A stretch of 34,398 bases of DNA. Origin: Klebsiella pneumoniae. Its GTDB lineage: Bacteria; Pseudomonadota; Gammaproteobacteria; Ga0077536. Both the position numbers and the translations under genes were made by a program. The notes beneath the pieces were generated by a model. That model ran no database searches, had not been told where the DNA came from, and was given only the letters and a program-made list of their open reading frames with translations. Numbering within the stretch: position 1 is the first letter of the stretch; each line of letters begins with the position of its first letter. The stretch spans positions 1 through 34,398 of the forward strand of contig CAMATU010000020.1 of assembly GCA_945861225.1 (NCBI GenBank), in the 5' to 3' direction. Shown here one piece after another: positions 8,184-16,648 of this stretch.

Positions 8184-8606
8184 ATGTTCCGACTTAAAGT
8201 TTGGCGGCTGGTGGGCTTACTCGCAGTTTGCACGCCGGTTTTCGCGCACGACTATCCCACCATGGATCGGGTCGACCAGGTGCTTACCTGCATGAAACTG
8301 AACGGCGGGCAGAACGTGGATAATCTCTTTCGTTGCGCGTGTGAAATAGATGCGATCGCCCAACAACTGAGCCTGGAAGATTTCAATACCGCGCGCACCT
8401 ACGAGATCTACAAGAACATGCCGGGCGAAAAAGGCGGCTTGTTTCGCGAATCCGCTGATGGCAGTGCCGCCGTCGCTAAGCTCGCTGCAGCGCGCCAAGA
8501 TGCCAAGAAGCGCTGCTTCGTCGGGGCCACCCGGCAGACCACCAGGCTGACCGATAAAGGCGTGCCGAAGGAGCCACAGAAAGCGGCTGCTAAGGCTGCC
8601 CAATAA
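8184..8606 (+). CDS. Small secreted protein upstream of xoxF, function unknown
   Basis: This 140-aa protein has a signal peptide ending VFA-H (about residues 1-21). The mature part begins HDYPTMDRVDQVLTCMKLNG and contains three clustered Cys (one in VLTCMK, two in FRCACEID) plus a later Cys in KKRCFVG, suggesting disulfides in the periplasm. The C-terminal tail is Lys/Ala-rich and probably disordered. The ribosome-binding site is AAGGAGAAGG before the ATG at 8184. Small proteins with this YPTxDRVxxVLxC pattern are, as I recall, encoded beside PQQ-dependent alcohol dehydrogenases, which would fit the next gene, but I do not know a biochemical role. It carries no CxxCH haem motif, so it is not the missing cytochrome. 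Confidence 0.75.
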   Translation: MFRLKVWRLVGLLAVCTPVFAHDYPTMDRVDQVLTCMKLNGGQNVDNLFRCACEIDAIAQQLSLEDFNTARTYEIYKNMPGEKGGLFRESADGSAAVAKLAAARQDAKKRCFVGATRQTTRLTDKGVPKEPQKAAAKAAQ

Positions 8607-8632: not shown

Positions 8633-8660
8633 TTGCCGGGGTGGATTTTTTCTCTATAAT
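8633..8660 (+). promoter_or_regulatory. Sigma-70-type promoter for xoxF leader
   Basis: TTGCCG (8633-8638) and a perfect TATAAT (8655-8660) are separated by 16 bp. It sits just downstream of the 8184-8606 gene and points toward xoxF. It is the best promoter-like match I noticed in the window. Transcription would begin near 8667 and give a 5' untranslated region of roughly 425 nt. Confidence 0.55.
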
Positions 8661-9090
8661 CGGTCGCGCCTCGCCAATAAAATTTCAGCGAAAAACGCAC
8701 ACGGCGAGACCACGAACAAGCACTGTCCGGACACCCCTGGTTGATGTGGTCGGGGCGCCCAAACAGCGCGACGGTAGACCCGCAAATAGGTTTGCCGGCA
8801 GCTCGTGGTTCGGAGAGAATCGTCTTAACCGAGAAGTCGTCCGCATGACCACAGCCCGCGAGGGATCCAGCGTCGAATCTATTTTTGCCAAGCACGCGCT
8901 GCGCGTTGTGCAGTGCGTCTTTACCCACCAACTCGCGAAATTTCGTGCGACTGCGCCGTCAGGCGAGTCGCGTGTCTTGTTCTCCATACTCTGTGCTGCG
9001 CCTCTGATCTCGGGTGCCGCGCGGAGTCAAAACTGCCTAGAGATCGACTCAAAACTGTTAACAGCAAAAAGTGTGAAGAAGGAGGAGGTC
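8661..9090 (+). other. Long leader region of xoxF
   Basis: No credible gene is visible here. The frame is open in phase with xoxF, but the translated sequence is not protein-like and has no ribosome-binding site. A strong hairpin lies at 8947-8972: GCGACT, bulged G, CGCC, loop GTCA, GGCG, AGTCGC. A moderately T-rich stretch follows it. The region ends in the strong ribosome-binding site AAGGAGGAGG. A long structured leader ahead of a highly expressed, metal-responsive gene could carry cis-regulation; this is inference. Confidence 0.4.
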
Positions 9091-10953
9091 ATGAGAAAAG
9101 CATCGTTCAAGCGATGGCTTCTAGCAGCGGCCTCTCTATCAGTAGTGACTGCATCTGGAACAGTCATGGCAAATGCTGAAATAGAGAAGCTGATGCAAGA
9201 CCCCAATTACTGGGCTTTCCCAGGCGGCAATTACTGGAACTGGCGGTATTCGGAGTTGAACCAGATCAACGCCACGAATGCGGGCAAGATCCAGGCGGCG
9301 TGGACGTTCTCCACGGGTGTTCTGCGTGGTCATGAAGGCGGTCCGCTGGTGCTACCAGCTGCGACTACCGGCCTGAAAGGCGACACCCTGTTTATCCATG
9401 CGGCATTCCCGAACAACGTCTTCGCGATCGATCTCGATACGCTGGAAGTTGTGTGGGAATACGTCCCGGTGCAGAACTACGATGAAACGGTGCCAGTCAT
9501 GTGCTGCGATACCGTCAACCGCGGTCTGGGCTATGGCGAAGGCAAAATCCTGCTGCAGCAAGCGGACACCACGCTGGTCGCGTTGAATGTCAAAGACGGC
9601 GCAGTGGTTTGGTCGATCAAGAACGGTGATCCGAAGCTTGGTCAAACCAACACCAACGCACCCCATGTGATTAAGGACAAAGTGTTTACCGGTATTTCGG
9701 GCGCCGAATTCGGCGTGCGTTGCTGGATGAACGCCTACAACCTGAAAGATGGCAAGCGCGCATGGCGTGCGTACAGCATGGGTCCGGATAGCGACATGCT
9801 GTTCGATCCTGCGAAAACCATGTCCATGGGACAGCCGGTTGGTGCGGATTCTTCGCTGAAAACCTGGAAGGGTGACCAGTGGAAAATCGGTGGCGGCTCG
9901 ACCTGGGGCTGGTGGCCATACGATAAAGAACAGAACCTGATGTTCTATGGCACAGGCAATCCGTCAACCTGGAACCCGGTGGTGCGGCCTGGTGACAACA
10001 AGTGGTCGATGAGTATCTTCGCCCGCGACGTTGACACCGGTGTCGCCAAATGGGTCTACCAGATGACCCCCCATGACGAATGGGACTATGACGGTATCAA
10101 CGAGATGATCCTCGCTGATATCAAAGTCAAAGGTGCCGATACCAAGGCGCTGGTCCACTTCGACCGTAACGGCTTCGGCTACACGCTGGACCGTACCAAC
10201 GGCGCCCTGCTGGTCGCTGAGAAGTTTGATCCGGCAGTGAACTGGGCGACCCACGTCGATATGAAGACGGGCCGTCCGCAAGTTGTCGCGAAATACAGCA
10301 CGCATCATGGCGGTGAAGACAACAACACCACGAACATCTGTCCGGCCGCGTTGGGTACCAAAGACCAACAGCCAGCAGCGTTCAGCCCGAAGACCGGCTT
10401 GTTCTATGTGCCGACGAACCACGTCTGCATGAACTATGAGCCAGTCAGCGGTGGTGAATATGTCGCAGGCCAGCCGTATGTGAATGCGGTACTCAGCATG
10501 TTCCCAGCGGGTCGCGTCTCGCCAGGTCCTGAATTCGGCAACAATGCCGAAAACAACAACCTGGGCAACTTCGTGGCTTGGGATGCGGGCGAAGGCAAAA
10601 TCAAGTGGTCGATTCCGGAACGCTTCTCCGTTTGGAGTGGTGCGCTGGCGACTGCGGGTGATGTGGTGTTCTACGGCAACCTCGAAGGTTACCTGAAAGC
10701 CATTGACGCCAACTCCGGCAAGCTGCTCTGGCAGTTCAAGACCCCGTCCGGCATCATCGGCAACGTCAACACCTGGGGCCATAAAGGCAAGCAGTTTGTG
10801 GGCGTGTTGTCTGGTGTGGGCGGTTGGGCTGGCATCGGCATGGCTGCCGGTCTCATCAACGACACCGATGGCTTGGGCGCTGTGGGAGCCTACAAGGGCT
10901 TGAACAACTACACCCGTCTCGGCGGCGTGTTGAGCGTGTTCAGTCTGCCCTAA
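9091..10953 (+). CDS. xoxF: Lanthanide-dependent PQQ methanol dehydrogenase, XoxF type
   Basis: This 620-aa periplasmic quinoprotein oxidises methanol to formaldehyde (possibly to formate). A signal peptide spans about residues 1-28 (cleavage after VMANA). The beta-propeller begins [19 protein letters not shown]. The PQQ-contacting vicinal disulfide is Cys138-Cys139 (VPVMCCDT). Predicted metal ligands are Glu206, Asn290 (YGTGN) and Asp332. The extra Asp334 in HDEWDYDG, two residues after the catalytic Asp, is the XoxF hallmark for lanthanide coordination; calcium-type MxaF has Ala there. The ATG at 9091 is set by AAGGAGGAGG and the signal peptide; the frame is open much further upstream (to 8629) but that is not protein-like. 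A strong terminator follows. The XoxF clade cannot be settled by eye. Confidence 0.95.
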
Positions 10954-11000
10954 GGGAAAATCAGCGGCTAATACTTTTAGGCGCTGATCTTAAAACCCGA

Positions 11001-11033
11001 ACCCGGCACCTTTCGAGGTGCCGGGTTTTTTTT
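11001..11033 (+). terminator. Intrinsic terminator after xoxF
   Basis: A perfect 11-bp GC-rich stem (ACCCGGCACCT, loop TTCG, complement) at 11001-11026 is followed by eight T residues. This is a textbook rho-independent terminator 48 bp past the xoxF stop. It separates xoxF from the blue copper gene. Confidence 0.92.
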
Positions 11034-11172
11034 GGTGGACCTGGCGTGGCGGTTGAGTTCAGGACGGATTAACGCCAATTACTGGATGATCGAAACCGCG
11101 CAGCCGATTACAGCTGGAAAATCGCCCGGCAGTGGAAGTCAAAACCAACAGAATTTGTGGAGAAGCAGGATC

Positions 11173-11628
11173 ATGATTGCGAAGAAGCTGGCCTATGGTT
11201 CAATTCTTGCGGGATTCATCAGCGCTAACGCACTCGCGGACGAGCACGCGATCAAGGCCGTAATCACCAACTGGATGCCGTTGGTGACCTATATCAAACC
11301 GGGTGACACGATCAAGTTCGTACAAATGGCAGGCCACGATACAGAAACCATTGAAGGCATGTTTCCCAAAGGCGCCAAGCCCTGGAAAGCCAAACTGGGT
11401 GAAGAGGCCTTCAGCGTAAAGCTGGAGAAGGAAGGCGCCTATATCTACAAGTGCAATCCGCACATGACCACCGGCATGGTGGGCGCCGTGGTAGTGGGTG
11501 AGGGTGTGCCCAAGAATCTGGCCACCCTCGAGGGCTCGCTGAACAAGGTGAAGGTGGGCAAGAACATGGTCAACCGCACGATCAGAAAGCTGAAGGAAGA
11601 TCTGAAGAAGACCGGGCGGATGAAATAA
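11173..11628 (+). CDS. Pseudoazurin-like type 1 blue copper protein
   Basis: This 151-aa protein has a signal peptide (about residues 1-22, cleavage after NALA). The cupredoxin ligands are clear: His55 in MAGHDTE, then Cys94, His97 and Met102 in YKCNPHMTTGM. The C-x2-H-x4-M spacing and the roughly 39-residue gap from the first His match pseudoazurin, a periplasmic one-electron carrier. Placement between xoxF and xoxJ, where a cytochrome cL (xoxG) gene is normally found, suggests it accepts electrons from XoxF; that is inference. The C-terminus carries an unusually Lys/Arg-rich extension (about residues 125-151) that could help docking to an acidic partner. GGAGAAG lies 7 nt before the ATG. 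It begins after the xoxF terminator, so it probably has its own promoter. Confidence 0.88.
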   Translation: MIAKKLAYGSILAGFISANALADEHAIKAVITNWMPLVTYIKPGDTIKFVQMAGHDTETIEGMFPKGAKPWKAKLGEEAFSVKLEKEGAYIYKCNPHMTTGMVGAVVVGEGVPKNLATLEGSLNKVKVGKNMVNRTIRKLKEDLKKTGRMK

Positions 11629-11666
11629 GGACAGCCATGTTTTTAACATCAAAGGCTGCCGTAGTT

Positions 11667-11826
11667 TTTATAGGGCGGATGAGCGGCGTCAGCCGCGTTA
11701 TCCGCCGCCAATCGTCTCAAGACTGGCAGGCCCATGAAACAACAAATCAGTTTCTATAGGGCGGATGAGCCCGAAGGGCGTTATCCGCCCACAATCGTCG
11801 GATGACGCTAACGCTTATCCGACCTA
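11667..11826. repeat. Cluster of REP-like hairpin elements
   Basis: Three related palindromic units occur in tandem. REP1 (about 11673-11706) and REP2 (11758-11790) both start TATAGGGCGGATGAG and end in TTATCCGCC around different inner stems. REP3 (11797-11823) pairs GTCGGATGACGC with GCTTATCCGAC. They fall in the 378-bp gap between the pseudoazurin gene and xoxJ. Such elements are dispersed, usually non-autonomous RAYT-mobilised repeats; no transposase gene is in the window. Confidence 0.75.
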
Positions 11827-12023
11827 TAACTGGCTTATTTATGGGACAAAGCATTGGCTTAAGCGCGTTGGTGGGAAGACACTCAAAGCCAGGCGGGCAT
11901 TTCGGTAGGAGCGGCTTTAGCCGCGAACAGCGCCGAATCGCCCATCGCGGCTAAAGCCGCTCCTACGGTCACAAGATCGATAAATAAACTTAAAAGTGAC
12001 AGGCCCATGAAACAACAAATCAG
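11727..12023 (+). repeat. 24-bp direct repeat duplicating the xoxJ start
   Basis: A 24-bp sequence (CAGGCCCATGAAACAACAAA followed by TCAG) occurs at 11727-11750 and again at 12000-12023, where it includes the real xoxJ start codon and first codons. The upstream copy opens an ATG frame that runs into REP2 and stops after about 24 codons. The 249 bp between the copies is filled by REP2, REP3 and an inverted repeat, so the simplest reading is insertion or local duplication at the 5' end of xoxJ. Confidence 0.8.
11905..11966. repeat. 22-bp inverted repeat upstream of xoxJ
   Basis: The left arm 11905-11926 (GTAGGAGCGGCTTTAGCCGC, then GA) and right arm 11945-11966 are perfect complements around an 18-nt loop. 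The same repeat class (GTAGGAGCGGCTTTAGCCGC) is, as known, dispersed in many gammaproteobacterial genomes. It ends about 40 bp before the xoxJ start, so it will fold in any transcript entering xoxJ. Confidence 0.8.
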
Positions 12024-12891
12024 GACTGGTGTCTTCAGTGCGTGCCTCGGCACGTGGCTCGCGCTCAACGCAAGCGGCGCGCTGGCGGAAGACGCGCCGC
12101 CGCGCACGGCGTTAAAAGTTTGCGCGCCGCCTTACAGCCTGCCGATGTCCGACAAAGACGAATCGGGCTACGAGAACAAAATCGCGCAGCTCTTCGCCAA
12201 GCAGTTGAAGTTGCCGCTCGAGTACACCTGGTTCCCGCAACGGATGGGATTCATACGTGGCACCTTGAAGAGCAACGAGACTGAAGACGGCAGTTATAAG
12301 TGCGATCTCGTGATGGGGGTAATCGATAATTTCGAACTGGCAGCGACTACTCAGCCGTATCTGCGCTCGGCGTGGTCCATGGTCTATATCAAGGGGCGTG
12401 GTCTCGATTTCATTCAGACCCAGGCAGATCTTAAAAATCTCAAGCCAGAACAGAAGCAACTCCTGCGGATCGGGATCTGGGACCAGGGTCCGACCACCGA
12501 ATGGATTTATCAACTTGGGTTGATTGATAACGCGACGCCATTTCCGATTATGTCCGGCGACGCACGTCAAGGTCCCGGTCACATCATCGAGAACGATCTT
12601 GCGCAGGATAAGGTCAACCTGACTTTCGTGTGGGGCCCGATCGCGGGCTATCTAGCGAAAAAGACCACTGCGCATGAGCTGGTGGTGATCCCCCTGCAGA
12701 ACGAGGCGGGTTTGAAGTTCGATTTTCAGATTGCGATGGCAGTGCGTCAGGCAGATACCGCCTGGAAGGGAGAGATCAATGCCTTGATCAGAAAGAACCA
12801 ATCCGCGATTGAGCGCATCCTTGCCGATTATGTTGTGCCCCAATTGGCCTTACTCCCCCCCAAGAGCAAACGGAAGGATGATGATGACTAG
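12007..12891 (+). CDS. xoxJ: XoxJ/MxaJ-type periplasmic binding protein
   Basis: This 294-aa secreted protein has a signal peptide ending GALA-ED (about residues 1-28). It has the fold of family-3 solute-binding proteins: ALKVCAPPYSLPMSDKDESG at the start of domain 1, CDLVMGVIDNFELAATTQPY, the domain-2 stretch LLRIGIWDQGPTTEWIYQLG, and LTFVWGPIAGYLAK. This matches the quinoprotein-dehydrogenase-associated binding proteins (XoxJ/MxaJ) that accompany methanol dehydrogenases and are thought to help assemble or activate the enzyme. It ends in an acidic KRKDDDD tail coded by GAT repeats that overlaps the start of the next gene. Its leader is disrupted by a duplicated start and REP elements, so its expression may be uncoupled from the pseudoazurin gene. 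Confidence 0.87.
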   Translation: MKQQIRTGVFSACLGTWLALNASGALAEDAPPRTALKVCAPPYSLPMSDKDESGYENKIAQLFAKQLKLPLEYTWFPQRMGFIRGTLKSNETEDGSYKCDLVMGVIDNFELAATTQPYLRSAWSMVYIKGRGLDFIQTQADLKNLKPEQKQLLRIGIWDQGPTTEWIYQLGLIDNATPFPIMSGDARQGPGHIIENDLAQDKVNLTFVWGPIAGYLAKKTTAHELVVIPLQNEAGLKFDFQIAMAVRQADTAWKGEINALIRKNQSAIERILADYVVPQLALLPPKSKRKDDDD

Positions 12892-13627
12892 TGTAGTGAG
12901 AACGGTCTGGGCGCTGGTGTTCGGTGTTGGGTTATGCTTTGGGAACGCGCACGCGGCAGCGCCTGGGGCACCGGAGGAGGCTGCGTTTTCGGAAGCCGAA
13001 AAGCTGCTCTGGACGGGCGATCAGTTAAAGGCGGTCACCGCGCCCTCGGTGCTCGAGTATCGCTTTATAAAATCTGGCACCTATGAAGCAGGGTTTTCAG
13101 ATTCGGTGGTGTTTACGATTCAGCAGGTAAAGCCGGATGGCATGAAGACCGCTTCGGTGGGATTTTTCACCGGCGAGCGCCGCTTCCCGATCCCCCCCGA
13201 AGACAGCACGAACATGAATCCGGTGCTTAAGATCTATCTCCAGGGCGATGTTTACGAGATGAATCGCCTGACTGATCCGGACGGCAAATCGCGTGAGCGC
13301 TGGCGCTATTTCCAGCGCCGAGTCAAATTCGCCTTGGCCGAGGCGGCGAAGATTGAGCCAACGCAGTTCGAGTTCGACGGAAAATCCTATGCCGGCAAGC
13401 GGGTCACTTTCACGCCCTACAGCCAAGACCCCAAACGCGATGCATTCGATAAATTCGCGAACAAGCTGTATTCGGTCATCGCGTCAGACGATCTACCCGG
13501 TTTCATCTACCAGATCCAAACGACGGTGCCGGCCAAGGTCGCCGGTGCGCCGCCGTTAATCGATGAAATTCTGCAGCTGATCGCGATTAAACCGTACAGT
13601 CCGGTGGTGGTGAAACGCCCCCAATAG
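12884..13627 (+). CDS. Secreted protein of unknown function in the xox cluster
   Basis: This 247-aa protein has a signal peptide (about residues 1-22, ending AHAAAP). The mature part has alternating beta-strand and helix character: SVLEYRFIKSGTYEAGFSDS, a repeated use of Phe/Tyr near VGFFTGERRFPIPPED, and a helical YFQRRVKFALAEAAKIEP. No Cys, lipobox, catalytic or metal-binding motif is evident. I do not recognise the family. Start choice: three consecutive ATG codons at 12878, 12881 and 12884 follow GGAAGG (12872-12877); the third has the best spacing (6 nt). The gene overlaps the xoxJ stop, implying translational coupling, and its own stop codon lies inside the following palindrome. A methanol-dehydrogenase accessory role is inferred only from position. 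Confidence 0.78.
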   Translation: MTSVVRTVWALVFGVGLCFGNAHAAAPGAPEEAAFSEAEKLLWTGDQLKAVTAPSVLEYRFIKSGTYEAGFSDSVVFTIQQVKPDGMKTASVGFFTGERRFPIPPEDSTNMNPVLKIYLQGDVYEMNRLTDPDGKSRERWRYFQRRVKFALAEAAKIEPTQFEFDGKSYAGKRVTFTPYSQDPKRDAFDKFANKLYSVIASDDLPGFIYQIQTTVPAKVAGAPPLIDEILQLIAIKPYSPVVVKRPQ

Positions 13628-13832
13628 GGCGGAAAAGCGCAGCGCCTTCCGCCGGATAAGGCCACCTCCGAAACTCCGTCATCCCGGAAACGGCGCAGCC
13701 GTTATCCGGGATCCATGCGGAACATTAAACGCCGATGGATCCCGGGTCTACGCCGCTATGCGGCTTCGCCCGGGATGACGGGGTTTCGGAGGTGGCATCA
13801 TCCGGCGGAAGGCGCTGCGCTTTTCCGCCCTA
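13625..13832. repeat. 208-bp nested palindrome between convergent genes
   Basis: The outer arms 13625-13657 and 13800-13832 are a perfect 33-bp inverted repeat beginning TAGGGCGGAAAAGCGCAGCG. The inner arms 13661-13687 and 13770-13796 match over 27 bp with one mismatch. Smaller stems fill the centre (around ATCCGGGATCCATG and its complement near 13734-13745). It separates the convergent xox and fdh operons and can fold on either transcript, so it probably acts as a bidirectional terminator or mRNA end block. It looks like several REP-type elements inserted into one another. Confidence 0.85.
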
Positions 13833-13858
13833 TGAAACCTATGAAACCGATGAGATCT

Positions 13859-16648
13859 TCATGCGTGGTTCGCGGTCTCAAACGCGTGCGTCTCCGGCGC
13901 TGCAAGCGCAGGCGAGATCCGCACCGCACAGAATTTAAACTCAGGAATCTTGCCGAACGGATCAAGCGCCTCGTTGGTCAGTAGATTGGCCGCCGCTTCC
14001 ACATAACAGAAGGCAATGAATACTGTCCCCCGCTGAACGCCAGCATCCGCGCGCACGCGCGCCGTCAATGCCCCGCGCCGGGATTCCGCGCGCACATAGC
14101 CCTCTGCGTGCAAACCTGCTTCGCGAATGTCGAGCGGATGCAGACTCATCACCGGTTCGGGTTCCAATGCATCGAGAACTGTTGCATGCCTGGTCATGCT
14201 GCCGGTGTGCCAATGTTCCAATTGGCGCCCGGTGATCAGTACCCAGGGATACTCGGGATCCGGCAATTCAGCGGCATGCGTATACGCCGCAGGCACAAAT
14301 TTCCCACGACCGCTGGCAGTCGGGAAGCCGGCCTTGAAGAGGATCGGTTCACCCGGATCGCCTTCCACCTCGCAGGGATAGGTCACCGAGTGCGTGGCCT
14401 CAAGGCGTTCCCAGGTGATACCGGCAATACTGGGCGCGGCGGTCCGCAATTCGGCAAATACTGCGCTGGCATCCGCGTAATCCCAGGCAAGGCCCAAGCG
14501 GCGCGCGAGCTCCTGGATAATCCACAGATCCTGGCGCGCCTCGCCGGGTGGTTGAATCGCCTGGCGTCCTAGCTGCACCCTGCGATCAGTGTTGGTGAAG
14601 GTGCCGGTTTTCTCGGGGAATGCAGACGCGGGAAGAATGACATCCGCGAAGCCAGCAGTTTCTGTGAAGAAGATGTCCTGCACCACCAGATGCTCGAGTT
14701 CGGCCAAGGCGTGGCGCGCGTGATTCAAGTTGGGATCAGACATCGCCGGATTCTCGCCCATGATGTACATGCCCTTGATGCGGCCCGCGTGGATCGCATG
14801 CATGATTTCCACCACCGTAAGTCCTGGCTGCGAATCCAGCGCGGTGCCCCACAGCGCTTCGAAGCGCGCGCGCACCTGCGGATCATCCACTCTTTGGTAA
14901 TCCGGAAACACCATCGGGATCAGACCGACATCCGACGCGCCCTGCACATTGTTCTGACCACGCAAGGGATGCAGGCCGGAACCGGGCCGGCCGATCTGGC
15001 CGGTCAACAGCGCGAGCGAGATGAGACACCGCGCATTGTCGGTGCCATGCACGTGCTGTGAGATCCCCATGCCCCAAAAAATCATCGAACCTTTGGAAGT
15101 CGCGTATTTGCGCGCAACCACGCGCAGGGTCTCGGCATCGATGCCACAGACCGGCGCCACTTTCTCGGGGCTGTATTCCGCTACGCCGCGCTTTAGTTCG
15201 GCAAAGCCTTCGGTGTAGCGCGCGATATAGTCCGTGTTCTCCAGTCCTTCCGCGATAATTACGTGCATCAGACTGTTCAGCAGGGGCACATCCGTATCGG
15301 GGCGAAACTGCAGATAGTGCGTGGCATGCCGCGCCAGATCCGAGCGATACGGATCCAGCAAAATAAGCGTCTTGCCGGCTTTCACGGCGTTCTTGATGAA
15401 AGTCGCGGCGACCGGGTGGTTGACGGTTGGTCGCGCGCCGATGATCACGATCACTTCCGCTTCGCTCACGTCCTCGACTTGATTGGAGACGGCGCCGGAA
15501 CCGATCGTCTCCAACAATGCCGCCACGGAGGAGGCGTGACACAGGCGCGTGCAGTGATCGACGTTATTGGTATGAAAACCCGTGCGCACCAATTTTTGAA
15601 ATAGATACGCTTCCTCGTTGGATCCTTTGGCCGAGCCAAAACCCGCCAGTGCAGCAGGGCCGTGCGTGTCGCGCAACTCGCGCAGACCGCTTGCCGCGAC
15701 GTGCAGTGCTTCGTCCCAGCTCGCCTCGCGAAAGTAATGATGCAATTGCGCACGCGGCACCAGCGCTGCAGTTTTCGGCATGCCTGCGCGGCGGATCAGC
15801 GGTTTGGTGAGGCGATCTGCATGGTGGATGTAATCGAAGCCGTAGCGTCCCTTCACACACAAACGGCTGTGATTCGCCGGTCCGTCGCGACCTTCCACGG
15901 CGATGATCCGCTCGTCTTTCACCTGAAAATTCAGCAGGCAGCCGACGCCGCAATAGGGGCACGCCGACGCCACCGAGCGATCGGGGATCTCGGCCGCGAC
16001 TGACTGCGCCGGCATCAGCGCACCCGTTGGGCAGGCTTGTACGCATTCACCACAACTCACGCAGGTGCTATCGCCCATTGGATCATTGAGATCAAACACG
16101 ATTGCCGACTGCGCACCACGGAACGCGAAGCCAATGACGTCGTTGACCTGTTCTTCGCGACAGGCGCGCACGCAGCGTCCGCATTGGATACAGGCATCGA
16201 GATTGACCGCAATGGCCGGATTCGATACATCACGCGGCGGCTGTTCGCGTGGCGCAAAGCGCGCGCCCTCAAGCTGCAGGAAATCGCTCCAGTGATCGAG
16301 CTCCGAACGCGGCGTGTAAGGCGAGCGGGCAGCTGGCATGTCCGACTTTAACAATTCCACCACCATGCGCTGTGAATGGCGCGCGCGCTCATTGCTGGAA
16401 TTAACTTCCATGCCCTCGCTGGGTGCGCGGCAGCAGGAGGGGGCGAGTACTCGTTCACCCTTGATTTCGACCACGCAGGCGCGGCAATTGCCGTCCGGGC
16501 GGTAACCCGCTTTGTAGCACAGGTGAGGGATCTCGATGCCCAGGCGTATCGCGGTTTGCAGGAGGGTTTCGCCGGCGGCGGCTTGCACTGCCTGACCATC
16601 GAGCGTGAAATTCGTGAGCGGCAAGCGTTCCGGCGTGGCGGCAGTCAT
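13859..16648 (-). CDS. fdhA: NAD-linked formate dehydrogenase, alpha subunit
   Basis: This 929-aa cytoplasmic Mo/W-bis-MGD subunit oxidises formate to CO2. In order: an N-terminal [2Fe-2S] ferredoxin domain (Cys44, 55, 58, 72/73); two [4Fe-4S] motifs at Cys153-156-159-163 and Cys196-199-202-206; the molybdopterin-domain cluster Cys230-233-237 with Cys264; and the active site in VDHCTRLCHASS, where Cys370-His371 stand in for the Sec/Cys-His pair. It uses Cys, not Sec. The C-terminal MGD-binding domain includes WVLITGRQLEHWHTGSMTR. The start at 16648 (MTAATPERL) overlaps the fdhB stop (TGATG); the frame is open to 16840 but that part lies inside fdhB and is not protein-like. Size and the fused partner fit the two-subunit FDH1 type of methylotrophs, known to use tungsten in Methylorubrum. 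Confidence 0.93.
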   Translation of the reverse strand: MTAATPERLPLTNFTLDGQAVQAAAGETLLQTAIRLGIEIPHLCYKAGYRPDGNCRACVVEIKGERVLAPSCCRAPSEGMEVNSSNERARHSQRMVVELLKSDMPAARSPYTPRSELDHWSDFLQLEGARFAPREQPPRDVSNPAIAVNLDACIQCGRCVRACREEQVNDVIGFAFRGAQSAIVFDLNDPMGDSTCVSCGECVQACPTGALMPAQSVAAEIPDRSVASACPYCGVGCLLNFQVKDERIIAVEGRDGPANHSRLCVKGRYGFDYIHHADRLTKPLIRRAGMPKTAALVPRAQLHHYFREASWDEALHVAASGLRELRDTHGPAALAGFGSAKGSNEEAYLFQKLVRTGFHTNNVDHCTRLCHASSVAALLETIGSGAVSNQVEDVSEAEVIVIIGARPTVNHPVAATFIKNAVKAGKTLILLDPYRSDLARHATHYLQFRPDTDVPLLNSLMHVIIAEGLENTDYIARYTEGFAELKRGVAEYSPEKVAPVCGIDAETLRVVARKYATSKGSMIFWGMGISQHVHGTDNARCLISLALLTGQIGRPGSGLHPLRGQNNVQGASDVGLIPMVFPDYQRVDDPQVRARFEALWGTALDSQPGLTVVEIMHAIHAGRIKGMYIMGENPAMSDPNLNHARHALAELEHLVVQDIFFTETAGFADVILPASAFPEKTGTFTNTDRRVQLGRQAIQPPGEARQDLWIIQELARRLGLAWDYADASAVFAELRTAAPSIAGITWERLEATHSVTYPCEVEGDPGEPILFKAGFPTASGRGKFVPAAYTHAAELPDPEYPWVLITGRQLEHWHTGSMTRHATVLDALEPEPVMSLHPLDIREAGLHAEGYVRAESRRGALTARVRADAGVQRGTVFIAFCYVEAAANLLTNEALDPFGKIPEFKFCAVRISPALAAPETHAFETANHA

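Follow-up and report, generated by a model that had tools for sequence, protein, structure and literature searches.

The window, i.e. the whole 34,398-nt stretch of contig CAMATU010000020.1 that was analysed, encodes a lanthanide-type methanol dehydrogenase, XoxF, which is preceded by a long leader. This leader ends in a predicted H-type pseudoknot with the stems P1 and P2, here called the element. The features of the region are as follows.

8633..8660, + strand: sigma70-type promoter TTGCCG-N16-TATAAT, a conserved box pair before xoxF
8667..9090, + strand: xoxF leader of about 424 nt, with a start predicted some 7 nt downstream of the -10 box; no conservation in its middle
8947..8972, + strand: hairpin named first, in an earlier note on this DNA; folds, sequence not conserved, no terminator
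8988..9002, + strand: 5' strand of P1; covariation, 78 G-U versus 3 A-C cells
9006..9011, + strand: 5' strand of P2, the apical loop GAUCUC; covariation
9013..9027, + strand: 3' strand of P1; covariation
9028..9039, + strand: linker between P1 and P2; 12 nt in the window, 11-19 nt among 36 sequences, where the outermost P1 base may be counted in
9040..9045, + strand: 3' strand of P2, GAGAUC, predicted to close the pseudoknot; six core pairs in 36/36 sequences
9055..9064, + strand: small palindrome CUGUUAACAG, common to several relatives; CAUGAUCAAC instead in others
9079..9093, + strand: extended ribosome-binding site AAGGAGGAGGUC-AUG; ATG immediately preceded by GGTC in 32/36 element-bearing genes
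9091..10953, + strand: xoxF, lanthanide-type methanol dehydrogenase, 620 aa

The best solved relative of the xoxF product is the lanthanide-dependent methanol dehydrogenase XoxF 6dam. Both proteins contain the stretch DEWDYDG, the second Asp of which we take to be the mark of the lanthanide type. Read from position 9091, the N-terminus of XoxF is signal-like. An in-frame N-terminal extension from 8629 was rejected on account of this N-terminus and because only 2 of 12 leaders, that of the window and L004, keep the frame free of stop codons over more than 300 nt upstream.

A small Cys-containing protein of 140 aa, probably exported, is encoded 5' of xoxF (8184-8606). It has no Pfam or NCBIfam match, and tblastn relatives lie on either side of xoxF in 49 of the 94 xoxF loci searched. 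After xoxF follows a pseudoazurin-like cupredoxin (11032-11628), which has tblastn relatives in 35 of the 94 loci, duplicates counted, and which may be the electron acceptor of the XoxF of the window. From 10950 to 13860, the + strand encodes no CxxCH motif such as the cytochrome XoxG would have. Further downstream, 12007-12891 encodes a MoxJ-like periplasmic protein (TIGR03871) and 12809-13627 a protein that belongs to no known family; relatives of the latter protein are found in 29 of the 94 loci.

Promoter and leader of xoxF

The boxes TTGCCG (8633-8638) and TATAAT (8655-8660) are separated by a gap of 16 nt, as described in the earlier note, which had read them as a promoter. Taken alone, promoter-like sites in the 5-kb region are at chance level (3 found versus 2.5 +/- 1.5 expected from shuffles). 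The promoter is nevertheless regarded as real because conservation, not the site count, settles the question. Thirteen loci, that of the window and those of 12 relatives, were compared first; 12 of them have a box pair spaced by 16 nt, with TATAAT as the second box, at -228 to -512 from xoxF. The first box is GTGCCG in L012, and the remaining locus, L016 (61% XoxF identity), has no box pair of this spacing. In a set of 50 de-duplicated element-bearing leaders (62 loci before de-duplication; L157 and L161, missed by the pattern, are excluded), 20 including that of the window carry TTGNNN-N16-TATAAT at -296 to -512, and 30 are without the exact pattern. Spacings of 10-15 and 17-24 nt occur in 0 to 2 of these leaders each. 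Among 50 xoxF leaders without the element, spacing 16 was found in none and spacing 18 in one. A regulon signal was rejected since GGTTGYYG-N15-CTATAATC, searched with up to one mismatch, matches only once in the window's own genome. In L043 and L050, a box pair TTGACG-N15-GATAAT lies immediately 5' of P1 and would set the pseudoknot at the 5' end of the mRNA; similar letters are also present in L144, L149, and L154.

With a transcript start about 7 nt past the -10 box, the leader of the window would comprise about 424 nt, and twelve leaders range from 194 to 478 nt. A long leader free of a credible gene had been claimed, and this description holds for the predicted transcript: by eye, no conserved ORF is present in the 12 leaders, and control by a leader peptide was rejected on the same grounds. 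A lack of conservation among relatives, which would have spoken against the leader, was not found: both ends are kept and the middle is not, with about the last 110 nt before ATG being common to relatives. Two further candidates were dismissed. The fold of the whole leader reaches a z of -1.93, with 3/100 shuffles equally good, and the mid-leader long-range helix UGUGGUC/GACCACA is complementary in 4/5 leaders and weaker in the fifth, with both 5-mers occurring together in few others.

The hairpin at 8947-8972 folds at -19.1 kcal/mol, and the segment 8940-8985 has a z of -2.87 with 1/200 shuffles equally good. It is surpassed within the leader by a hairpin near -204 that folds at -19.7 kcal/mol, a value reached by 4/60 shuffled leaders. 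The tail of the hairpin contains 7 T per 14 bases (8973-8986). The list of terminator-like sites on the + strand has no entry between 8660 and 9091, nor does it contain this hairpin; thus, the intrinsic terminator of a transcription attenuator is absent from that list. Across five aligned leaders the hairpin sequence is not conserved. Some hairpin below -15 kcal/mol, of unrelated sequence, is found within 80 nt 5' of P1 in 5 of 10 family members, including the window. The hairpin was therefore rejected as a regulator, being neither conserved in sequence nor a terminator. The idea of a stable, structured leader survives in altered form: a structured cis-acting RNA does appear to be present, but the hairpin originally put forward is the wrong one, and the conserved structure is the pseudoknot at 8988-9045, which begins 16 nt downstream of it.

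A conserved pseudoknot upstream of the ribosome-binding site

In the predicted H-type pseudoknot at 8988-9045, the 3' end of which lies 45 nt before ATG, the P1 loop GAUCUC pairs with GAGAUC. The P1 hairpin was obtained from single-sequence folds and from RNAalifold. Several single-sequence folds are no better than shuffles, so that the case rests on comparison. The covariation test that had been suggested for leaders of related xoxF genes gave the following values. In an alignment of 18 sequences, 90.0% of the cells of P1 and P2 are paired and double-change cells number 61 versus 21.0 +/- 4.6 in shuffles. With 36 sequences, these values are 91.4% and 137 versus 44.4 +/- 7.0, and the joint score is 0.545 versus 0.243 +/- 0.015, falling to 0.135 or less when the stems are slid by 1-3 columns. 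The shuffles keep relatedness, and the covariation numbers are not to be read as probabilities. The larger alignment (A5) includes 18 sequences of the seed. The seed alignment (A3) was chosen partly by the pattern GRTCTY...GAGRYY, which favours P2 and leaves P1 unselected. When one search was repeated under a stricter cut-off, L086 no longer served as a source, and L086 itself and two antisense matches disappeared from the result.

For P2 alone, counted as a seven-pair helix, there are 8 double-change cells versus 2.9 +/- 1.3 in shuffles. Four of these are in the core, where GAUCUC/GAGAUC is replaced by GGUCUC/GAGACC in L063, L126, and L133 and by GGUCUC/GAGACU in L044. Two of five measures, the number of pairs with a double change and that of pair types, are not above shuffles; the former is 2, which 243/500 shuffles reach. 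G-U cells outnumber A-C cells by 78 to 3 in P1, indicating that it is the xoxF-sense RNA that folds; in P2, the numbers are 10 and 5. Judged by eye over 36 sequences, the 3-6 nt between the 5' strands of P1 and P2 and the linker of 11-19 nt allow an H-type topology. On the basis of these alignments, the fold and its strand are well supported, and the element can be described as an H-type pseudoknot in which covariation backs both stems, P1 strongly and P2 more weakly on two measures. By eye, the unpaired positions conserved in A5 are mainly a G that follows the loop strand, together with flanks rich in A.

The element also keeps its place: P2 ends 29-47 nt before ATG in 36/36 sequences. The ribosome-binding site downstream is a further common trait. 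GGTC precedes the start in nearly all element-bearing genes (32/36; deviations at this site occur in L007, L009, L134, and L135) and a start-like codon in 1 of 62 genes without the element, although the search windows differ, extending from -90 to the start for the latter and covering the position directly before ATG for the former. Five independent comparisons are available, of which 4 are concordant, which is not significant, and shared ancestry of the element and GGTC accounts for part of their association. In L055, L045, L122, and their relatives, the segment between P2 and the ribosome-binding site carries CAUGAUCAAC at the place of CUGUUAACAG in the family of the window, and CAUGAUCAAC can pair with the start-codon sequence GGUCAUG.

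Distribution of the element

Genomes were surveyed with the covariance model R1, the E-values of which are rough; surveys of more than 40 genomes used stricter filters. R1 recovered the element in sequences outside its build, e.g. L006, L014, L115, L123, and L130. Matches were found in 10 of 58 genomes of relatives (10 places), in 15 of 369 genomes of a class sample (17 places), and in 35 of 53 genomes of the order of genome G153 (39 places). In a phylum sample of 398 genomes the single match (1 place) was that of the window's own genome, and a spread across the phylum was therefore rejected. The four surveys together comprise 59 distinct places. Of these, 57 are located before xoxF. Of the other two, L121 is a match of 43 nt at the end of a contig, and L132 is a weak false match (E 0.04) with no xoxF nearby. 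Places before xoxF were assigned by tblastn or adjacent coordinates, in G781 and G782 via a partial xoxF match whose distance from the element, within one contig, is suitable, and in L142 and L160 via the same context of ribosome-binding site and start codon at a contig end. The genes at the survey matches are xoxF and its paralogues only, with no uptake, PQQ, or cytochrome gene among them.

The element is present in 18 of 80 named loci. Its bearers include the named strain Methylohalomonas lacus HMT 1, a Ga0077536 MAG, RBG_16_51_14, and MAGs titled Thiotrichaceae and Legionellales, and real matches in the class sample fall into seven family codes (f1, f12, f29, f67, f119, f133, and f140). Four genomes (G153, G268, G810, and G824) have two xoxF genes with the element at each. 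In the order of G153, where xoxF was scored at E up to 1e-150, 29 genomes have both the element and xoxF, 2 have only xoxF, 6 only the element, and 16 neither. In the six element-only genomes xoxF is cut by a contig end, and the two xoxF-only genomes are G783 and G799, the xoxF of the latter being 5'-truncated. This association has a p of 5e-7 with relatedness disregarded. Mapped onto a XoxF tree, the element needs 5 changes versus 20.7 for shuffled labels. The tree is without 37 loci uncaught by the ORF filter (35 element-less or unlabelled, plus the element-bearing L135 and L160), without L079 and L084, which were lost at the BLAST step, and without L005, L010, L034, and L059, which were left out beforehand. 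The tie to xoxF is thus evident from these comparisons. No clear element is seen in the close relatives L011, L012, L035, and L086, even when the filters are switched off, and none reaches the cut-off in G783 or at C73, the second xoxF of G800. The element is therefore not essential.

Possible functions of the element

Control of xoxF at the RNA level is likely. The element probably regulates, and it would do so at translation. The explanation as a whole, for which the evidence speaks slightly better than evenly, is that the xoxF leader ends in a cis-acting pseudoknot RNA which most likely sets translation of xoxF, with its loop as a competitor under a cellular signal. The P1 hairpin loop would close the pseudoknot through P2, with the start codon and its strong ribosome-binding site following 29-47 nt on. 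In one state, the loop (U)GAUCUC would pair with GAGAUC and leave the ribosome-binding site free; in the other, its partner would be GAGGUC(A) of the ribosome-binding site and start codon, and translation would be blocked. Some cellular signal might shift the balance between the knotted and the blocked state.

The competition step is put forward tentatively. A two-state switch is suggested by the fact that, in the common sequence, the loop has similar predicted pairing energies with the ribosome-binding site and with GAGAUC (-7.4 kcal/mol for the loop duplex with the ribosome-binding site versus -6.3 kcal/mol for P2), a comparison which favours the former as its window covers 17 nt versus 6 nt of the P2 strand. 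Against the switch, P2 is kept by compensation in L063, L126, and L133 but the ribosome-binding site has not changed in step, which leaves its pairing with the loop weak in these loci (-3.8 kcal/mol for the loop duplex versus -8.3 kcal/mol for P2). Blocking the P2 strand in nested folding had no general effect on the accessibility of the ribosome-binding site (mean unpaired 0.524 versus 0.531), and the notion that P2 frees this site in nested folding was dropped. Two anti-start sequences were also discarded: the far one, AUGACC, occurs in 6 of 50 loci versus 3.9 expected, which is not significant, and the near one, AUGAYC (CAUGAUC), stands between P2 and the ribosome-binding site in 22 of 50 loci versus 0.5 in shuffles, but its occurrences are concentrated among relatives and the window lacks it.

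Other explanations differ in whether they involve sensing. The element might stabilise the xoxF mRNA as a barrier to RNase E or 5'-end decay for bulk protein production, without sensing anything. The strong ribosome-binding site would suit such a role, as would the box pair right before P1 in L043 and L050, with which the RNA would begin at the hairpin. The promoter of the window's family, however, lies about 330 nt 5' of P1, making the element internal, and a barrier does not obviously need the near-invariant sequence of P2, so that this role is considered unlikely. The single target gene and the near-invariant sequences of P2 and the ribosome-binding site would also fit a binding site for a trans-acting protein or small RNA, be it a repressor or an activator of xoxF; this possibility, too, is given little weight. 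A DNA site, i.e. an operator or a second promoter, was considered in view of the TATACTCT-like start of P1 in several relatives, where CATACT or TATACT resembles a -10 box. It is highly improbable, as P1 varies freely in sequence with its pairing kept and the excess of G-U over A-C cells points to selection on the sense RNA.

More specific is the proposal that the pseudoknot is a riboswitch aptamer for a lanthanide ion, PQQ, or a C1 metabolite which gates xoxF translation. A conserved, structured leader RNA does precede the gene, located just 5' of the ribosome-binding site of a lanthanide-type enzyme, and the near-invariant sequence of P2 stands against the freely changing P1. Against it, A5 seems by eye to offer few conserved unpaired nucleotides for a ligand pocket, there is no Rfam match, and the survey matches lie before xoxF alone and not before several genes of a pathway, the latter being common but not obligatory for riboswitches. 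A riboswitch is therefore rated as rather improbable. Still less credence is given to its boldest form, a new metal-sensing RNA class in which binding of a lanthanide ion to the pseudoknot would free or block GAGGUC-AUG and thereby switch xoxF translation. To our knowledge, no natural lanthanide riboswitch has been described, and none was found in the open-access literature searched. The preferred reading remains a cis-acting RNA that would set the translation of xoxF.

Searches against Rfam 15 gave no match at gathering score for the whole window or for 8 relatives, and a permissive search with the leader gave three matches, all far below gathering score. Searches of open-access full texts, a body of literature outside which most subscription papers and all bioRxiv preprints fall, turned up neither a title nor an abstract that deals with a structured leader of xoxF. 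By their general description, preQ1-I and SAM-II riboswitches resemble the element in having a small hairpin, pairing of its loop with a downstream strand, a linker, and a position just before the ribosome-binding site. Their 3' pseudoknot strand includes or abuts the Shine-Dalgarno sequence, whereas that of the xoxF element ends 29-47 nt before ATG; moreover, the element has one target gene and matches no Rfam model. Pseudoknots at the start site of mRNAs are also known from the ribosomal-protein transcripts rpsO (S15) and the alpha operon (S4), where they control translation of one transcript and are bound by a ribosomal protein. XoxF, in contrast, is an exported enzyme, and autoregulation of this kind is therefore unlikely. 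The MxaY/MxaB lanthanide switch of gammaproteobacterial methanotrophs likewise regulates xoxF and mxa, but it is a two-component system acting at the level of transcription and not an RNA element. It was through XoxF that lanthanides became a biological metal, and regulation of this enzyme is generally treated as a matter of transcription. For Methylophaga nitratireducenticrescens GP59, a c-di-GMP riboswitch is annotated at pqqA (PMC12530212). This RNA is similarly placed at a gene of the cofactor pathway of methanol dehydrogenase, but it belongs to a known class and is not located at xoxF.

Even without metal sensing, the element is a candidate for a new RNA family with one target gene. Its conserved pseudoknot, which accompanies xoxF in seven families within the class of the window, narrows the leader to a defined piece of 60-110 nt, and RNA-level control of the rare-earth enzyme XoxF thereby becomes directly testable.
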